Part shown: positions 19,783-46,036 of the stretch, piece after piece
How the letters are laid out: each line of letters starts with the position of its first letter
Position numbering within the stretch: position 1 is the stretch's first letter
Origin: Halopseudomonas xinjiangensis
GTDB taxonomy: Bacteria > Pseudomonadota > Gammaproteobacteria > Pseudomonadales > Pseudomonadaceae
Length of the DNA: 64,000 nt
Direction of reading: 5' to 3'
Assembly: GCA_011050525.1 (NCBI GenBank)
Contig: DRFO01000017.1
Location: 310,001-374,000, forward strand
The notes under the pieces: generated by a model
The model's input: only the letters and a program-made list of their open reading frames with translations
Database searches by the model: none
What the model was told of the DNA's origin: nothing
Translations under genes and position numbers: made by a program

Positions 19783-19911
19783 ATGTGTGACGGATCGCAC
19801 TGCTTGGCAGGATGCCGAGCCATGGATTGCCAGGAGGCAAGGTCGGGATGACCAGGACAGGGATGACGCATAAGGAAGAAAGAGTGGGCGGGTTTTCCCG
19901 CCCCTTTTTTT
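19783..19911 (+). ncRNA. rsmZ: RsmZ-type regulatory RNA (RsmA/CsrA sponge)
   Basis: Small RNA of about 129 bases that would sequester RsmA/CsrA and relieve translational repression of its targets. It holds eight GGA motifs. At least four sit in hairpin loops: GTGTGA-CGGA-TCGCAC, CTTGGC-AGGAT-GCCGAG, TTGCC-AGGA-GGCAA and GGTC-GGGAT-GACC. It ends in a terminator stem GGGCGGG-TTTT-CCCGCCC (19886-19903) followed by C and seven T. Its position next to fdxA, an upstream GacA box and the repeated AGGA loops all match RsmZ. Both ends are inferred. Overlapping reading frames on either strand are not genes. Confidence 0.9.
19886..19911 (+). terminator. Terminator of rsmZ
   Basis: A 7-bp all-GC stem (19886-19892 with 19897-19903, loop tttt) is followed by C and a T run. 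It forms the 3' end of the small RNA, 80 bases from the end of the convergent fdxA. Confidence 0.92.
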
Positions 19912-37857: not shown

Positions 37858-37948
37858 GGAGAGGTGTCCGAGTGGCTGAAGGAGCACGCCTGGAAAGTGT
37901 GTATACGTTAATAGCGTATCGAGGGTTCGAATCCCTCTCTCTCCGCCA
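37858..37948 (+). tRNA. tRNA-Ser (anticodon GGA)
   Basis: Class II tRNA of 91 bases including an encoded CCA end. The acceptor stem GGAGAGG pairs with TCTCTCC (one G-U), the discriminator is G, and the anticodon loop CTGGAAA gives GGA for UCC/UCU codons. The long variable arm lies between the anticodon and T arms, and the T arm contains GGTTCGAATCC. Reading frames that cross it on both strands are the well-known false ORFs of tRNA-Ser. Confidence 0.97.
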
Positions 37949-39174: not shown

Positions 39175-39795
39175 TCAGTGGCTGATATGTAACCCGCACT
39201 CCCGGTTCTCTTCGCCCTTGGTTGGATCGAAGTAGTCGAAATTGTTGGGCAGGTCGTGGGCAACGAGGTATTGGTACAAATCCTTGGCGCTCCAGTAGAG
39301 CAGGGGAGCCACTTTGATCAGGCCGTCCGGGTTGAGGCTTACCGGTTCCATCTGGGCTCGCACGGCGGTGTCGCTGGCGCGCAGTGCAGTAAACCAGACC
39401 TGCGGAGCCGCTTCGCTCAGCGCCCGGGCGAATGGCTCCAGCTTCACCTCTTCGGTGAACGCGGCGTGACGCGGATCGTCAAGCGCTGGAACGGGTCCGT
39501 CCACGGCCTCGCGGTGTGCGCGGGAGCGCCTGGGGAGATAGATTTGCAGGTTTAGCTGCAAGCGTTGGGTCACTTCATCGGCAAATCGATAGGTGGCCTC
39601 GGTGTTGTAGCCGCTGTCCATCCACAGGATAGGTATGTTCGGCTGGACCTGGCTCACCATATGCAGGATTACCGCCTCGAAGGGCCGGAAGTTGGTTGTG
39701 CAAAGCGCCGGCTTGCCTAGCCCAAGCGCCCATTCCACAAGTTTTTGAGCGTCATTTCCATGGGCACTGTTGATGCTTTCAAGATCGAGCGTCAT
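39175..39795 (-). CDS. cysH: Phosphoadenosine phosphosulfate reductase family protein (short CysH)
   Basis: Predicted thioredoxin-dependent PAPS reductase of sulfate assimilation, 206 residues. It follows E. coli CysH closely in the core (DSGYNTEATYRFADEVTQRL, VWFTALRASDTAVRA, LLYWSAKDLYQYLVAHDLP) and keeps the catalytic ECGLH at the C-terminus. It lacks the Cys-Cys and Cys-x-x-Cys pairs that hold the [4Fe-4S] cluster of APS reductases, so it belongs with the PAPS type. It is about 38 residues shorter than E. coli CysH, and the nucleotide loop reads TTNFRPFEAV. AGGAG is six bases before the ATG at 39795. It is divergent from nirB. Confidence 0.83.
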   Translation of the reverse strand: MTLDLESINSAHGNDAQKLVEWALGLGKPALCTTNFRPFEAVILHMVSQVQPNIPILWMDSGYNTEATYRFADEVTQRLQLNLQIYLPRRSRAHREAVDGPVPALDDPRHAAFTEEVKLEPFARALSEAAPQVWFTALRASDTAVRAQMEPVSLNPDGLIKVAPLLYWSAKDLYQYLVAHDLPNNFDYFDPTKGEENRECGLHISH

Positions 39796-40176
39796 CAAAG
39801 ACTCCTGGGTGATAAAGGCTATGTGTCAGCTAGGTTGAACGATGCTCGCATGCTTGGCGACCTGCACCGGACGGATCACTGGAGCCAGTCGCTGTGCGCC
39901 GCCGCTTCGGCTTTCTATTACGAAATAGGTCGCGCCAAAAAGTTCCAACGCCCAACAGCGTGCATCGGCCATGGGCGCAAACGTATCGGCCGCCCTATAG
40001 AACGCTGCGCACCAAAAGGGGACTCAGGATTTTGCATTGCCCCCTTCTGGCCCAAGGCGCTACGCCACAACGTCTTCGCTAAGCCAAGCGCAGTACTAGC
40101 TGCGATCACGCCGAAGCAAGGTCGTTACAGGTCGTTGCTCGCTTAGCTTCCGTGCTGTGAGGGCCGTCCTGCACCC

Positions 40177-40192
40177 TGGCACGCGCCTTGCT
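40177..40192 (+). promoter_or_regulatory. Sigma-54 (RpoN) promoter of nirB
   Basis: TGGCAC-N5-TTGCT matches the sigma-54 consensus exactly at all conserved positions, with the GG at 40178-40179 and GC at 40190-40191. Transcription would start near 40203, giving a leader of about 210 bases. Nitrogen-regulated nitrite assimilation genes are typical NtrC/RpoN targets. Confidence 0.85.
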
Positions 40193-40281
40193 TTATCTAA
40201 TAGTACCTGTCCAAACACTGGCCAGGCGTCCCATGTGATCAATGACGATCACCAGCCTGTAATAAGGGTGGGACGGGTGAA

Positions 40282-40374
40282 TCGGGCAGCGTAGCCCGAC
40301 TAATCCTGGAACTTACAGACGAACACCAGGCAAAGGCGCCTGGGGCCGATTGATGGCTCCAGGCGTTTTTTTTT
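40282..40374 (+). promoter_or_regulatory. ANTAR (NasT)-type antitermination leader of nirB
   Basis: First hairpin: TCGGGC-AGCGTA-GCCCGA (40282-40299). Second: CCAGGC-AAAGGC-GCCTGG (40326-40343). Both have six-base loops with A at position 1 and G at position 4, the signature bound by ANTAR-domain antiterminators. The second stem shares its right arm with an intrinsic terminator (40337-40365, 11 bp, then nine T), so only one can form. Bound protein would hold the second hairpin and let RNA polymerase reach nirB, 39 bases beyond the T run. In Pseudomonas the expected protein is NasT, released by NasS when nitrate or nitrite is present; neither gene is in this window. Confidence 0.85.
40337..40374 (+). 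terminator. Leader terminator ahead of nirB
   Basis: An eleven-pair stem with one G-U (40337-40347 with 40355-40365, loop gattgat) is followed by nine T. A strong terminator placed between promoter and start codon implies attenuation. Confidence 0.93.
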
Positions 40375-40413
40375 GCGGGTCGCCCTGGCAGCGGCTCTGA
40401 CTGAGGAAAGGCT

Positions 40414-42972
40414 ATGAACTCTATCGTCACTCCGATCAAGAGCGAGACACTGGTCATTATCGGCAACGGCATGGTAGGGCATCACTGCGTTGAACAGCTG
40501 ATCGAGCGCGGTGCGTTGGCGCACTACGACGTGCATGTATTCGGAGAAGAACGTCAGCGTGCCTATGATCGCGTGCACCTGTCCGAGTATTTTGGTGGGC
40601 GCGATGCCGAATCCCTTGCGCTCTGTGAAGCTGATCTCTACACCCTCCATGGCGTGCACCTCCACCTTGGCGTGCAGGTACTGGAGATTGATCGGCAAAC
40701 CAGGGAGGTGGTGACCACCGCCGGACGCCAGGCCTATGATCGACTGGTTCTGGCTACCGGGTCTTATCCTTTCGTGCCGCCAATTCCCGGAGCTGACGGC
40801 AGTTCGCGTCTGGTTTATCGCACTCTGGATGATCTGGACGCCATCCGCGCGGCGGCGGTGCATGCCCGGCGGGGTGTAGTGGTTGGCGGCGGCTTGCTCG
40901 GGTTGGAGGCTGCAAACGCGCTCAAATCCCTGGGTCTTGAGGCGCACGTGGTGGAATTTGCCCCGCGTCTGATGCCGGTACAGCTGGATGCGGAGGGGGG
41001 GAGTGCACTGCGGGCCAGAATCGAGGCGCTGGGCGTGGGCGTTCATCTGTCGCGTGCCACCCAGGAAATTGTACCGGGTGAGGAGTATGCCTATCGAATG
41101 AATTTCAACGACGGCGAGTTCCTTGAGACCGACCTGATTCTATTCTCGGCCGGGATTCGTCCGCAGGATGCCCTGGGGCGTTCGGCCGGGCTTGCAGTCG
41201 CAGAGCGCGGCGGCGTAATCATCGATGGCGATTATCGCACCAGTGACCCGGCCATCTTCGCCATCGGCGAATGCGCCTCCTGGAACGGCAGCTGTTTCGG
41301 ACTGGTTGCGCCTGGCTACGCCATGGCGCGCAACCTGGCCGCCCAACTGGTGGGCGAGCAGCATGACCCGTTCGCTGGCGCCGATATGTCCACCAAGCTC
41401 AAGCTGCTCGGCGTGGATGTTGGCTCGATTGGCGACGCGCACGCCGCCACGCCTGGTGCCAAAAGCTACCGCTTTATCGACGAGACGACTGGCAGTTACC
41501 GCCGCCTGGTCATTTCCGCTGATGGCAAGAAAGTAATCGGCGCTGTGCTGGTCGGTGATAACAGCTATTACGATACGCTGTTGCAGTACGCGCAGAACGC
41601 TATCGCGCTGCCAAAGGACCCGTCGAGTCTGATCCTGCCGTTGTCAGACGGCGCGCCGACTCTTGGTGCAGACGCCTTGCCAGCTACCGCAACCATCTGC
41701 TCCTGCCACAACGTCAGCAAGGGAGCGGTCTGCTGTGCGGTCGATGCCGGTTGCACCGATCTGGGCGACCTGAAAGCCGAGACCAAGGCCGGCACCGGTT
41801 GTGGCGGTTGCAGCGCGCTGCTCAAGCAGGTTTTTGAGCACGAGCTGAGCGCTCGGGGCGTGGCGGTCGACAAGAGCCTTTGCGAGCACTTTGCCCACAC
41901 CCGTCAAGAGCTTTACGCCATCGTTCGGGTAGAGGGCGTGATCAGCTTCGACGAGCTTATTGCCAGGCACGGCCGCGGCCATACCGGCTGCGAAATATGC
42001 AAACCCGCCGTCGGCTCAATACTCGCCTCGTGCTGGAATCAGCCGATCACCGACCCCGCACTGGTACCGCTGCAGGACACCAACGACACCTTCATGGCGA
42101 ATATGCAGAAGAACGGCACCTATTCGGTGGTCCCGCGTATCGCAGGCGGCGAGATCACGCCTGACAAGCTGATTGCCCTGGGCGTCGTGGCCAAAAAATA
42201 CGATCTCTACACCAAGGTTACCGGTGGTCAGCGAATCGACCTGTTTGGTGCGCAGCTGCATCAGTTGCCGGACATCTGGGGCGAGTTGATCGAAGCGGGG
42301 TTCGAAACCGGGCATGCCTACGGTAAATCGCTGCGCACGGTGAAATCCTGCGTAGGTAGCACCTGGTGTCGTTACGGCGTGCAGGACAGCGTGGGCATGG
42401 CCATTCGCCTTGAGGATCGCTACAAGGGGCTGCGTGCGCCGCACAAGATCAAATTCGGCGTATCGGGCTGCACCCGCGAATGCGCCGAAGCGCAAAGTAA
42501 GGATGTTGGCGTCATCGCCACCGAAAAAGGCTGGAATCTCTACGTCAGCGGCAACGGCGGCATGCGTCCGCGCCATGCCGAGCTTTTTGCCACCGATCTG
42601 GACGACGCCACTCTTATACGCTTCATCGACCGTTTTCTGATGTTCTACATCCGCACTGCCGACAAGCTCCAGCGCACCTCCGTGTGGAGGGAAAGTTTGG
42701 AGGGCGGGCTGGATTACCTCAAGGAAGTGGTCATCGATGACAGCCTGGGTCTGGCCGCCGAGCTCGAGGCGCAGATGCAGCTAGTGGTCGATCGCTACGA
42801 ATGTGAATGGGCCAATGCTCTCCAGGACCCGGAGAAGCTCAAGCGCTTTCGGACCTTCGTCAATGACGAGCGGGGCGATCCTGACATCCATTTCGTGAAG
42901 GAACGAGGCCAGCGCCGTCCGGTGCACGCGTCCGAGCTACACCTGATCCCTGTTACCGAGGAGACCCCCTGA
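40414..42972 (+). CDS. nirB: Nitrite reductase (NAD(P)H), large subunit NirB
   Basis: Assimilatory enzyme that reduces nitrite to ammonium with NAD(P)H in the cytoplasm. The 852-residue protein has, in order, a pyridine nucleotide-disulfide oxidoreductase part (LVIIGNGMVGHHCVEQL near residue 14, VVVGGGLLGLEAANAL near 153), a BFD-like [2Fe-2S] segment (ICSCHNVSKG and GTGCGGCSALL) and the sulfite/nitrite reductase half. The last ligates siroheme and [4Fe-4S] through CVGSTWC and CTRECAEAQ. The start has GGAAAGG just upstream. Its stop overlaps the nirD start by one base. It is controlled by the sigma-54 promoter and leader described above. Confidence 0.96.
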   Translation: MNSIVTPIKSETLVIIGNGMVGHHCVEQLIERGALAHYDVHVFGEERQRAYDRVHLSEYFGGRDAESLALCEADLYTLHGVHLHLGVQVLEIDRQTREVVTTAGRQAYDRLVLATGSYPFVPPIPGADGSSRLVYRTLDDLDAIRAAAVHARRGVVVGGGLLGLEAANALKSLGLEAHVVEFAPRLMPVQLDAEGGSALRARIEALGVGVHLSRATQEIVPGEEYAYRMNFNDGEFLETDLILFSAGIRPQDALGRSAGLAVAERGGVIIDGDYRTSDPAIFAIGECASWNGSCFGLVAPGYAMARNLAAQLVGEQHDPFAGADMSTKLKLLGVDVGSIGDAHAATPGAKSYRFIDETTGSYRRLVISADGKKVIGAVLVGDNSYYDTLLQYAQNAIALPKDPSSLILPLSDGAPTLGADALPATATICSCHNVSKGAVCCAVDAGCTDLGDLKAETKAGTGCGGCSALLKQVFEHELSARGVAVDKSLCEHFAHTRQELYAIVRVEGVISFDELIARHGRGHTGCEICKPAVGSILASCWNQPITDPALVPLQDTNDTFMANMQKNGTYSVVPRIAGGEITPDKLIALGVVAKKYDLYTKVTGGQRIDLFGAQLHQLPDIWGELIEAGFETGHAYGKSLRTVKSCVGSTWCRYGVQDSVGMAIRLEDRYKGLRAPHKIKFGVSGCTRECAEAQSKDVGVIATEKGWNLYVSGNGGMRPRHAELFATDLDDATLIRFIDRFLMFYIRTADKLQRTSVWRESLEGGLDYLKEVVIDDSLGLAAELEAQMQLVVDRYECEWANALQDPEKLKRFRTFVNDERGDPDIHFVKERGQRRPVHASELHLIPVTEETP

Positions 42973-43364
42973 TGAGTCAGCCAAACGCGTTATCTGCCCC
43001 ACCGCTGTCCTCAAGTCGCAACTCCAACGCCTGGAGCCGACTGTGCAGCCGCCAGGACCTGGTGGCCAATTCCGGCGTGGTTGCCTGGCTCGATGGCGCT
43101 CAGGTCGCGCTGTTTCACCTGCCGCATACCCCTGACGGCGAACAGCTTTTCGCCGTAGAAAACCGCGATCCCAAGTCAGGTGCGAACGTAGTCGGGCGTG
43201 GCATCGTCGGCCAGCTCAAGGGCGACCTGGTTATCGCATCGCCGCTCTACAAGCAGCACTACCGGTTGAAGGACGGCAGCTGCGTGGAATATCCGGAGCA
43301 GCGCCTGCGCGTCTGGCCGGTGCGATTGAATGGCGATGTCGTGGAAATAGGGCCACTCGGCTGA
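42972..43364 (+). CDS. nirD: Nitrite reductase (NAD(P)H), small subunit NirD
   Basis: Small partner of NirB with a Rieske-like fold, 130 residues. It shows the family features WSRLCSRQDLVANSGVVAWL, VALFHLP and FAVENRDPKSGANVVGRGIVG, with no Cys/His cluster ligands, as is normal for NirD. The TGATG junction with nirB indicates translational coupling. Confidence 0.93.
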   Translation: MSQPNALSAPPLSSSRNSNAWSRLCSRQDLVANSGVVAWLDGAQVALFHLPHTPDGEQLFAVENRDPKSGANVVGRGIVGQLKGDLVIASPLYKQHYRLKDGSCVEYPEQRLRVWPVRLNGDVVEIGPLG

Positions 43365-43440
43365 TCGATACGAGCCAGGCCGCACAGGTCTCTACCAATA
43401 GTCGTCATCCTTAACCGAATCATGGAAAGAGAGTAAAAAC

Positions 43441-44250
43441 ATGTCTTATCTAGTGCCTGCAGAGTTCGTTACGAAGATGGTGGACGCGGGAGAATCCAAA
43501 CTCTTCATGGCGACCCGAGACGTATTGATCCGTGCCTACATGGCTGGGGCCATTCTGGCAATTGCCGCGGTATTCGCGGTGACGGTCACGGTGCAGACAG
43601 GCTCGCCAATTATCGGCGCCATCCTCTTCCCGGTCGGATTCTGCATCTTGTATCTGATGGGTTTCGATCTATTGACTGGCGTCTTCGTGCTCACCCCGTT
43701 GGCGTTGTTCGACAAACGGCCGGGCGTAACGGTGGGCGGCATCCTGAAGCATTGGGGTGTGGTTTTCACCGGCAACTTTCTGGGCGCCTTGACGGTGGCT
43801 CTGTTGATGGCAATCGTCTTCACCTACGGCTTCACCAGGGAACCCGATGCGGTTGGCAAGATCATCGGCGATATCGGTGAAGGCCGCACACTGGGCTACA
43901 AGGAATATGGTGCAGGCGGAATGCTGACGATTTTCATCCGGGGTGTGCTGTGTAACTGGATGGTTTCCCTGGGTGTGGTGGGCGCGATGGTTTCCACGTC
44001 GGTGAGCGGGAAGGTCATTGCCATGTGGATGCCGGTCATGCTGTTTTTTGCCATGGGTTTCGAGCATTCCGTGGTCAACATGTTCCTGTTCCCCTCGGGG
44101 CTGATCATGGGCGGTAATTTTTCCGTGATGGATTACCTGATCTGGAACGAACTACCGGTCGTACTGGGCAACCTGATAGGCGGACTCTCGCTGACCGGGC
44201 TGACGTTGTATGCCACCCACATGAGAACCGCTCCCAAGCGCGCGTTGTGA
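43441..44250 (+). CDS. nirC: Formate/nitrite transporter (NirC-like)
   Basis: Inner-membrane pentameric channel of the FNT family, probably importing nitrite for NirBD. The 269-residue protein has six spans. Family stretches include AGAILAIAAVFAV, FPVGFCILYLMGFDLLTGVFVL, NFLGALTVALL, RGVLCNWMVSLGVVGA and FFAMGFEHSVVNMFLFPSGL. The fifth contains the FEHxVxNM pattern of nitrite/formate channels. It follows nirD after 76 bases with its own GGAAAGAG site. It takes the place where some pseudomonads have assimilatory nitrate reductase, which is not present here. Confidence 0.9.
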   Translation: MSYLVPAEFVTKMVDAGESKLFMATRDVLIRAYMAGAILAIAAVFAVTVTVQTGSPIIGAILFPVGFCILYLMGFDLLTGVFVLTPLALFDKRPGVTVGGILKHWGVVFTGNFLGALTVALLMAIVFTYGFTREPDAVGKIIGDIGEGRTLGYKEYGAGGMLTIFIRGVLCNWMVSLGVVGAMVSTSVSGKVIAMWMPVMLFFAMGFEHSVVNMFLFPSGLIMGGNFSVMDYLIWNELPVVLGNLIGGLSLTGLTLYATHMRTAPKRAL

Positions 44251-44280
44251 GTTTCCCTCAACAAGCCCCTCAGCAAGTCT

Positions 44281-44295
44281 CGGCCCAATGGGCCG
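44281..44295 (+). repeat. Short hairpin between nirC and the kinase gene
   Basis: CGGCCC-aat-GGGCCG is a compact 6-bp stem in the 64-base gap, followed by GGGCTGTTTGG. Too little T to be a firm terminator; it may lower read-through into the kinase gene. Confidence 0.3.
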
Positions 44296-44314
44296 GGGCT
44301 GTTTGGGGTAGATA

Positions 44315-46036
44315 ATGTCCAGCCAGTTGAAAGTGTCCGTAGGGCAGTATTCCGACAAGGGCCGCAAGGCGGTCAACCAGGATTTTCACGGCGTTTACAG
44401 ACCGGAAGAGCCGCAACTGACCGCCAAGGGCATCGCCATCGCGCTGGCGGACGGCATCAGTAGCAGTGACGTGAGTCAGATTGCCAGCGAAGCGGCGGTG
44501 GCGGGTTTTCTTGCCGATTACTTTTGCACGTCGGACGCCTGGTCTGTGAAAAAGTCGGCCCAGCGGGTGCTGATGGCGACCAACTCCTGGCTGTATTCCC
44601 AGACGCGGCAGAGTCAGTACCGCTATGAGAAGGACAAGGGCTATGTGTGTACCTTCAGCGCCATGGTCATCAAGTCCACTACGGCGCATGTATTTCACGT
44701 GGGCGACGCGCGGATCTATCGCCTGCGGGGCGATGAACTGGAACAACTGACCAACGATCATCGATTCTGGATATCGCACGAACAAAGCTATCTCAGCCGC
44801 GCGCTAGGCATTGATTGCCATCTGGAGATCGACTATCAGGCGCTGCAGGTGGAGGCGGGGGATATCTTCCTGTTTGCCACCGATGGCGTCTATGAATATG
44901 CCGAGTGCCAGTTCATGGTCGCCACTATCACGGACCATGCGAGCGATCTGGATACGGCGGCGAGGATCATCGCAGAGCAAGCCTTCAGGCAGGGCAGTAC
45001 CGACAATCTCACCGCGCAGATCATTCGGGTCGACGAACTGCCCAGCCAGGACGCCAACGAGATCCACCAGCAACTGACCGAACTGCCTTGCCCACCCATT
45101 CTGGAAGCGAGGGCGGTCTTTGACGGCTTTCAGATTATCCGCGAGCTGCATGCCAGCAGCCGCAGTCATGTGTATCTCGCGGCCGAGGTCGGCTCAGACA
45201 CGCCGGTGATCATAAAAACCCCCTCCATCGATCTGCAACAGGACCCGGCTTATCTGGAACGGTTTCTAACCGAGGAATGGATTGCCCGGCGTATAAACGA
45301 CGTGCATGTGCTGAAGCCCTGCATGCAGACCCGTAAACGCAACTTTCTCTACACGGTCAGCGAGTTCATTGATGGCCAGACCCTGACCCAGTGGATGATT
45401 GATCACCCAAAGCCGGATCTGGAAACAGTGCGGGGAATAGTCGAGCAGATCGCCAAGGGGCTACGCGCCTTTCACCGGCTCGAAATGCTGCATCAGGACC
45501 TGCGTCCGGCAAACATAATGATCGACGGCACCGGCACGGTAAAAATTATCGATTTTGGCTCCACCCGGGTCGCCGGGTTGGCGGAAATCACCAGACCCTT
45601 TGCGCCAAGTGATCTGCTGGGCACCGCGCAATATATGGCTCCTGAATACTTGTTGGGCGAGGGCGGCTCGCCGCGCTCGGACCTGTTCTCGCTGGGCGTC
45701 ATTGCTTACCAGATGCTCACCGGCAAGCTGCCCTACGGGGCTCAGGTAGCCAAGGCCAGAACCAGGGCCGCACAGAACAAACTGGCTTATAAGTCTGTTC
45801 TTCACGATAACCGCGAAATTCCTGCCTGGATCGACGATGTGCTGAAAAAAGCTGTCCACCCGCAGCCGCACAAGCGGTATGACGAGCTATCCGAGTTCAT
45901 CTTTGAATTGCGCCAACCGAGCCAGCAATTCCTGAACAAGGCTCGCCCGCCGCTGATGGACCGCAACCCGGTGCTTTTCTGGAAGGGGCTGTGTTTTCTG
46001 CTGGCGATGGTGATAGCCGGCTTGCTCGTCCAATAG
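44315..46036 (+). CDS. PP2C phosphatase-serine/threonine kinase fusion, membrane-anchored
   Basis: Bifunctional signalling protein of 573 residues. PP2C domain 1-240: metal aspartates at Asp23 (AVNQDFHG), Asp46 (ALADGISSS), HVGDARIYRL, FATDGVYEY and STDNLTAQI. Protein kinase domain 265-540: ATP lysine Lys301 (PVIIKTPS), catalytic loop HQDLRPANIMID (His393, Asp395), DFG at 413-415 and MAPEYLLGE. The glycine-rich loop is degenerate (ELHASSRSHVYLA). A single C-terminal span (VLFWKGLCFLLAMVIAGLLVQ, split as residues 553-573) anchors it. I recall the same gene beside nirBD in P. aeruginosa, so a role in nitrate/nitrite assimilation is plausible but unproven. Confidence 0.88.
   Translation: MSSQLKVSVGQYSDKGRKAVNQDFHGVYRPEEPQLTAKGIAIALADGISSSDVSQIASEAAVAGFLADYFCTSDAWSVKKSAQRVLMATNSWLYSQTRQSQYRYEKDKGYVCTFSAMVIKSTTAHVFHVGDARIYRLRGDELEQLTNDHRFWISHEQSYLSRALGIDCHLEIDYQALQVEAGDIFLFATDGVYEYAECQFMVATITDHASDLDTAARIIAEQAFRQGSTDNLTAQIIRVDELPSQDANEIHQQLTELPCPPILEARAVFDGFQIIRELHASSRSHVYLAAEVGSDTPVIIKTPSIDLQQDPAYLERFLTEEWIARRINDVHVLKPCMQTRKRNFLYTVSEFIDGQTLTQWMIDHPKPDLETVRGIVEQIAKGLRAFHRLEMLHQDLRPANIMIDGTGTVKIIDFGSTRVAGLAEITRPFAPSDLLGTAQYMAPEYLLGEGGSPRSDLFSLGVIAYQMLTGKLPYGAQVAKARTRAAQNKLAYKSVLHDNREIPAWIDDVLKKAVHPQPHKRYDELSEFIFELRQPSQQFLNKARPPLMDRNPVLFWKGLCFLLAMVIAGLLVQ

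Follow-up and report, generated by a model that had tools for sequence, protein, structure and literature searches.

The leader of the nirB-nirD-nirC operon in a stretch of 64,000 nucleotides of Halopseudomonas xinjiangensis DNA (the window) is very probably a NasT-dependent attenuator of modular, three-hairpin build, in which two hairpins that we call H0 and P2 make up the constant pair and a third, P1, is optional. Direct support for this assignment comes from the sequence parts of the leader, from covariation of its stems, from constraint on its loops, from the presence of NasS and NasT in the genome, and from the absence of the leader in relatives that lack an ANTAR protein. The two-hairpin ANTAR antiterminator is established, with hairpins of at least 3 bp and hexaloops that carry A at position 1 and G at position 4 (A1/G4; Ramesh 2012, PMC3369931; NasR SELEX, PMC7496416), and the accepted ANTAR target is a hairpin pair bound by a dimer. 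Nitrate or nitrite causes NasS to let go of NasT, and free NasT is an oligomer described by its authors as broadly compatible with a hexamer (PMC3795266). In Pseudomonas, nirBD leaders are established targets of NasT: one review (PMC12830290) describes control of the nirBD leader NalA by NasT and sigma-54/NtrC, citing Romeo 2012 and Nie 2024, and a further paper (PMC8092218) gives RpoN, NtrC and NasT as regulators of nirBD, citing Romeo 2012.

Architecture of the nirB leader

A preliminary description of this DNA reported two hairpins with A1/G4 hexaloops in front of nirB, 26 bases apart, the second overlapping an 11-bp terminator with a tail of nine T residues. Base-by-base reading bears out these elements and their positions (Table 1), including the gap between P1 and P2 (40299 to 40326) and the overlap of hairpin and terminator. 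The count of two did not stand, as a third A1/G4 hairpin, H0, had been overlooked, and the sigma-54 promoter was likewise absent from that description.

Table 1. Features of the nirB leader and downstream genes, in window coordinates
Feature	Position	Strand	Description
Sigma-54 (-24/-12) promoter	40177..40192	+	TGGCACGCGCCTTGCT; zero mismatches to TGGCAYRNNNNTTGCW
Outer stem	40228-40232 with 40270-40274 (span 40228..40274)	+	Encloses H0 and a small second hairpin
H0	40235..40252	+	GTGATC[AATGAC]GATCAC; third A1/G4 hexaloop hairpin
P1	40282..40299	+	TCGGGC[AGCGTA]GCCCGA; A1/G4 hexaloop, 6-bp stem
P2	40326..40343	+	CCAGGC[AAAGGC]GCCTGG; A1/G4 hexaloop, 6-bp stem; putative antiterminator hairpin
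Intrinsic terminator	40337-40347 with 40355-40365, then T9 at 40366-40374	+	11 pairs, one G-T
nirB, NADH nitrite reductase large subunit	40414..42972	+	NF011565, 1243.8 bits; TIGR02374, 1071.7 bits; above cut-off
nirD	42972..43364	+	PF13806 Rieske_2, 121 bits
Formate/nitrite transporter (nirC-like)	43441..44250	+	PF01226, 210 bits
PP2C phosphatase-Ser/Thr kinase fusion	44315..46036	+	PF13672 and PF00069

Positions 40338-40343 form the 3′ arm of P2 and lie inside the 5′ arm of the terminator, so that the P2 and terminator folds are mutually exclusive. Folded each alone, P2 has a computed energy of -10.3 kcal/mol and the terminator stretch one of -27.9 kcal/mol, and the terminator fold is predicted to beat P2 unless P2 is held. 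Folding of the complete 181-nt leader gives z = -4.6. Loop starts are spaced 47 nt from H0 to P1 and 44 nt from P1 to P2, and the lower stem of P1 is poorly formed in the window, though conserved among relatives. A generic terminator scan did not report the terminator at 40337-40374, probably because its stem continues into the T tract. The sigma-54 promoter is the only zero-mismatch match to its consensus on either strand of the window; allowing up to two mismatches gives 36 matches in the window, which is no excess above chance. Sigma-70 promoters in 39700-44400 numbered 2 against 2.0 expected, both within nirB.

When the window was dinucleotide-shuffled 200 times and both strands were scanned, 15% of the shuffles contained one or more pairs of A1/G4 hexaloop hairpins (stem at least 6, gap at most 40), and 63% did when the stem was allowed to be as short as 5; because such pairs are common in shuffled sequence, the two hairpins are by themselves weak evidence. 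None of the 200 shuffles contains a triple resembling H0-P1-P2 at stem 6, and 1% do at stem 5; P1-P2 is the only pair on either strand of the window (stem at least 5) that has a run of T no more than 60 bases away. Its gap of 26 lies just outside the linker of 2-25 nt allowed in a curated survey of actinobacterial ANTAR RNAs (PMC8164766).

Conservation, covariation and modularity of the hairpins

For comparison we used the best 80 loci, whose NirB proteins are 80-90% identical to that of the window; two of these (L019 and L076) are truncated upstream, leaving 78 that are readable, and P2 is present in 75. Together with the window they provide 76 leaders, or 75 distinct sequences, and in 75 of the 76 a looser form of the sigma-54-like element lies upstream of P2, no farther than 235 nt away. 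In the interval from the -12 element to P2, 102 hexaloop hairpins with stems of 5 bp or longer were counted over the distinct leaders, 83 of them with both A1 and G4, where shuffling leads one to expect 29.7 hexaloop hairpins for 75 leaders, 2.1 ± 1.5 of them A1/G4; the leader sequences are related, and the 83 hairpins are not 83 independent events.

Twenty-five leaders of the window's class, picked by hand from the 76, were aligned. H0, P1 and the outer stem covary: H0 is paired in 95.9% of cells with 23 double-change cells against 7.5 shuffled, P1 in 85.3% with 16 against 5.8, and the outer stem, paired in 87% of cells, has changes on both sides at all five of its pairs. The loops are constrained as well. 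That of H0 has A1 in 23 of 25 sequences and G4 in all 24 that have a letter there, while positions 2 and 5 vary, and that of P1 has A, C and G at positions 1, 3 and 4 in 25 of 25. P2 hardly varies (98.7% of cells paired, loop A1 and G4 in 25/25), and support for its helix therefore comes from the loop and the terminator overlap, not from covariation. The terminator is paired in 99.6% of cells, and unguided RNAalifold recovered it along with H0 and part of P1.

The 67 leaders from genomes that encode NasT, the window among them, indicate how the hairpins combine. P2 is the anchor of this count, so its presence in every counted leader is partly by construction. At thresholds of 3, 4 and 5 contiguous bp, H0 (defined as TC[A..G..]GA) is found in 62, 62 and 59 leaders, and P1, taken here as any other C:G-closed A1/G4 hairpin upstream of P2, in 35, 28 and 23; an H0-like hairpin arises in 153 of 13,400 monoshuffled leaders. 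H0 fails the rule in L018, L047, L053, L068 and L074, of which L047 and L053 retain it with one mismatch and L068 has G1 in the loop. The distance from the H0 loop to the P2 loop is bimodal: in 16 leaders it is 38-45 nt, too short to accommodate P1, and in the other 46 it is 62-94 nt; a strict P1 accompanies H0 in 27 of 62. H0 is thus the more constant upstream partner of P2.

NasT and NasS are encoded on another contig

The preliminary description had attributed the leader to a NasT/NasR mechanism while observing that nasST is not nearby. A profile search of the window's genome (3.97 Mb in 44 contigs, 92% complete) found a single ANTAR match, at C6:38451 (68.2 bits). The protein is a 192-residue NasT with a receiver domain (30.2 bits) and an ANTAR domain (65.9 bits), and its gene is immediately preceded by one for an NMT1-like NasS (PF13379, 292 bits). 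As read from sequence, a receiver-ANTAR protein directly after an NMT1-like protein is the NasS-NasT arrangement, and the solved structures related to this NasT by sequence include the 'putative antiterminator' 1s8n, AmiR (1qo0) and a nitrate regulatory protein (4akk). The check proposed with the earlier attribution, under which a genome devoid of ANTAR proteins would have counted against it, is thus passed. The NasT half of that attribution is supported and the NasR half is not, as the sole detected ANTAR protein is NasT. The pair lies on a different contig from the window leader, as had been anticipated, and regulation of the window nirB would hence act in trans.

The nasST contig also encodes a NarK-type transporter (308.8 bits, just below the cut-off of 311.7), a second NirB (nirB2) that is 37% identical to window NirB, a nitrate reductase-like protein below cut-off, a uroporphyrinogen methyltransferase, and a paralogue of the window's PP2C-kinase fusion. 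Scanning the genome with the pattern CAAAGRCGNC..TTTTT, which is blind to leaders such as that of nasA, gave four matches against two for the reversed control; two of the four are the nirB and nirB2 leaders. The other two were taken as chance, judged from their sequence.

Leader composition in genomes with and without NasT

An ANTAR protein is encoded in 77 of the 80 relatives' genomes (47/50 and 30/30). The three genomes without one (L031, L034 and L056) are exactly the three of 78 that lack P2 and the terminator before nirB, and all three retain the sigma-54 promoter there; on the NirB tree they amount to only two independent changes. This co-absence, together with NasT and NasS in the genome, supports the antiterminator interpretation put forward in the preliminary description. 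In the same three genomes attenuation appears to have been lost together with its regulator.

With NasT called at 58% full-length identity or more, nine further genomes lack it; all of them encode proteins with NIT and ANTAR domains (NasR-type), assigned by adjacency in six, the other three being L054, L063 and L072. The L072 genome additionally encodes an AmiR-type ANTAR protein. H0 is found in one of these nine, L072 (Fisher p = 5.7e-7 relative to NasT genomes, uncorrected for kinship). With kinship taken into account, six independent pairs on the NirB tree divide into 3.7 in which H0 follows NasT, 0.2 with the opposite pattern and 2.1 without a difference, and the sign test gives a median p of 0.125-0.25 with 5-7 changes of NasT state on that tree. 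The association of H0 with NasT is therefore suggestive, a lead that is not significant after kinship correction. In the NasR-only L016, L017, L020, L032, L054, L063 and L080, P2 and the terminator are kept and no upstream A1/G4 hexaloop hairpin passes the rule. The idea that P1 is the NasR-specific hairpin was rejected: the window's genome and others have P1 while encoding NasT and no NasR, and eight of the nine NasR-only leaders are without P1 by the rule.

Sister leaders at nasA and nirB2

Two further leaders of like build lie within the nasST cluster of the same genome, before nasA and nirB2, and both look like sigma-54-driven ANTAR attenuators. The nasA leader, in front of the transporter gene (L002, 3943-4008), scores 40.1 bits for the Rfam narK RNA (RF03032), just below the cut-off of 43.2. 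The narK RNA consensus opens with a sigma-54-like promoter followed by GGcagCC[AACGGC]GGcugCC and CGAC[AAAGAC]GUCG, which are two A1/G4 hairpins; Rfam annotates the first only and leaves the second unpaired. The family has 51 matches among those listed, in 29 of 37 genomes, and both hairpins are present in 24 of 30 loci fetched from the 29. The narK RNA thus appears to combine a sigma-54 promoter with a two-hairpin ANTAR attenuator, which suggests a function for this family. The model starts from the -24 element, a sequence expected to lie outside the transcript. We found no paper on the 'narK motif' or 'narK RNA' in the literature searched.

The nirB2 leader, directly before the second nirB (L002, 7273-7408), matches Rfam P11 (RF00625) at 78.9 bits and has three A1/G4 loops and a terminator. 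The P11 'small RNA' accordingly looks like a terminated NasT leader, and presumably P11 and NalA are the same RNA. Using a hairpin rule of four contiguous bp or five of six, and leaving out L129 (no readable P2), the 15 P11-type leaders with readable P2 in NasT genomes contain H0 in 11 and P1 in nine. By eye, three of the H0 misses (L119, L122 and L124) retain an A1/G4 loop whose stem is shortened or contains a mismatch; some of the P1 misses are true departures, as L120 lacks G4 and the loop size differs in L123 and L127. P1 is the more variable hairpin in P11-type leaders too. At the NasR-only P11-type loci L130, L133, L135, L138 and L141, H0 is present in none of five and P1 is kept in L130 and L133; a sixth, L145, is a weak match from the same genome as L138 and has a different A1/G4 hairpin.

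The window leader itself gave no match at gathering score in an Rfam search, P11 included. Its narK RNA match (17.9 against 43.2 bits) was set aside as RNA homology, resting mainly on the sigma-54 promoter, and a mir-4599 match on the minus strand was taken as chance. A covariance model built from 28 two-hairpin P1-P2 cores with short linkers (21 narK-type, 7 P11-type) did not find P1-P2 across the 64-kb window, where its best matches lay elsewhere at 15.4 bits; when the search was confined to 251 bases and run with filters disabled, H0 scored highest, at 12.3 bits, and P1-P2 was not picked out. The motif is short and low in information and the linker longer in the window leader, which may account for these misses. 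The same model finds the nasA and nirB2 leaders, though these belong to the families it was derived from, the nasA leader being one of its rows.

Proposed mechanism and alternative explanations

In the mechanism we propose, the sigma-54 promoter, probably driven by NtrC at low nitrogen, would start the transcript near 40204, and by default the RNA would fold the terminator and stop near 40374. Nitrate or nitrite would lead NasS to free NasT, whose ANTAR domains would engage the A1/G4 hexaloops in H0, P1 and P2; with P2 held, the terminator 5′ arm would be unavailable and polymerase would continue into nirBD. H0 and P2 would serve as the constant pair and P1 as an optional third contact or a spacer. 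The binding of NasT, the signal, the read-through and the pairing partners of the hairpins are what we infer from the observations above.

One departure from this mechanism is the classic two-hairpin view of the preliminary description, in which NasT uses P1 and P2 only, H0 being a structural hairpin with no part in the switch. P1 lies next to P2, in the order of the published two-hairpin motif (PMC7496416), and the unbroken A1 and G4 of the P1 loop agree with such a role. An unrelated hairpin, however, is not expected to hold A1 and G4 while its other loop positions vary, nor to be retained where P1 is missing, as in the 16 leaders with close H0-P2 spacing, and we regard this explanation as unlikely. 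We consider it very unlikely that the leader is a constitutive terminator-attenuator or a terminated small RNA whose conserved hairpins answer to no ANTAR protein: the terminator is strong, and Rfam catalogued the comparable P11 leader as a small RNA gene, but neither the A1/G4 constraint nor the exact co-absence with ANTAR proteins would be expected. That the partner is a NasR-type (NIT-ANTAR) or AmiR-type protein instead of NasT draws on the occurrence of NasR in some relatives, alone or with NasT; the window's own genome has the single ANTAR protein described above, which is NasT, in an assembly whose 92% completeness allows for a second to have been missed, and such a partner seems to us very unlikely.

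A more speculative extension of the NasT attenuator, which we hold tentatively as possible but rather doubtful, is that H0 serves as a NasT-specific dock. Either a NasT oligomer of more than two subunits, or a dimer switching from H0-P1 to a pair that includes P2, would hold the three loops simultaneously, and NasR lineages would have shed H0 in parallel from window-type nirB leaders and from the paralogous P11-type nirB2 leaders. Leaders that naturally carry either two or three A1/G4 hairpins, one of which may track regulator type, form a family in which stoichiometry and partner specificity can both be tested by hairpin swaps.

Comparison with known systems

The window leader resembles the two-hairpin ANTAR antiterminator (PMC3369931, PMC7496416) in its A1/G4 hexaloops with a C:G closing pair, in the overlap of hairpin and terminator, and in the nitrogen gene downstream, and differs in having three such hairpins, H0 being a presumed recognition element. 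With the NasT-controlled nirBD leader of Pseudomonas (PMC12830290) it shares the sigma-54 promoter, presumably the antitermination by NasT, the nirBD target, and NasS and NasT in the genome. Unlike NalA/P11, it precedes a different NirB (37% identical to the nirB2 product), and an outer stem and longer linkers distinguish it as well. From its sequence features it would be a member of the class of NasT attenuators, set apart by the third hairpin and by P11 and narK scores below cut-off, and the P11-type leader of nirB2 in the same genome supports P11 as a NasT leader.

In Paracoccus denitrificans the nasA leader has two hairpins between promoter and gene, and mutation of HI causes severe loss of nitrate-induced transcription (PMC5424462); the organism and gene are different, and the window has three hairpins. 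Three hairpins in an ANTAR-bound RNA have a precedent in the PPE1-5′ RNA of Mycobacterium tuberculosis, which has three author-predicted hairpins and binds the ANTAR regulator PdtaR (PMC8131098). There the hairpins surround the start codon and sequestration of the regulator is proposed, with no attenuator or loop letters given in the account consulted; the window leader is a probable attenuator. The actinobacterial survey refers to dual stem loops, and its main text does not contain 'three stem' or 'third stem' (PMC8164766). We found no three-hairpin ANTAR attenuator in the literature searched, and an earlier description may exist within the work on P11/NalA (Romeo 2012, Nie 2024).

Downstream operon and other features of the window

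Downstream of nirB and nirD, the transporter gene is followed by that for the PP2C phosphatase-kinase fusion (Table 1), which by our reading probably belongs to the same operon. Fusion genes of this kind occur in both nitrite/nitrate operons, that of the window and that of the nasST cluster (L002, 5328-6995), and their products are 30% identical. Among the 80 relatives' loci, examined with flanks of at most 3 kb, a PP2C-kinase fusion lies beside nirB in 27, of which 26 also have a nitrite transporter gene. Elsewhere the window contains an RsmZ/PrrB small RNA at 19784-19911 (RF00166, 61.1 bits) and a tRNA-Ser (GGA) at 37858-37948.
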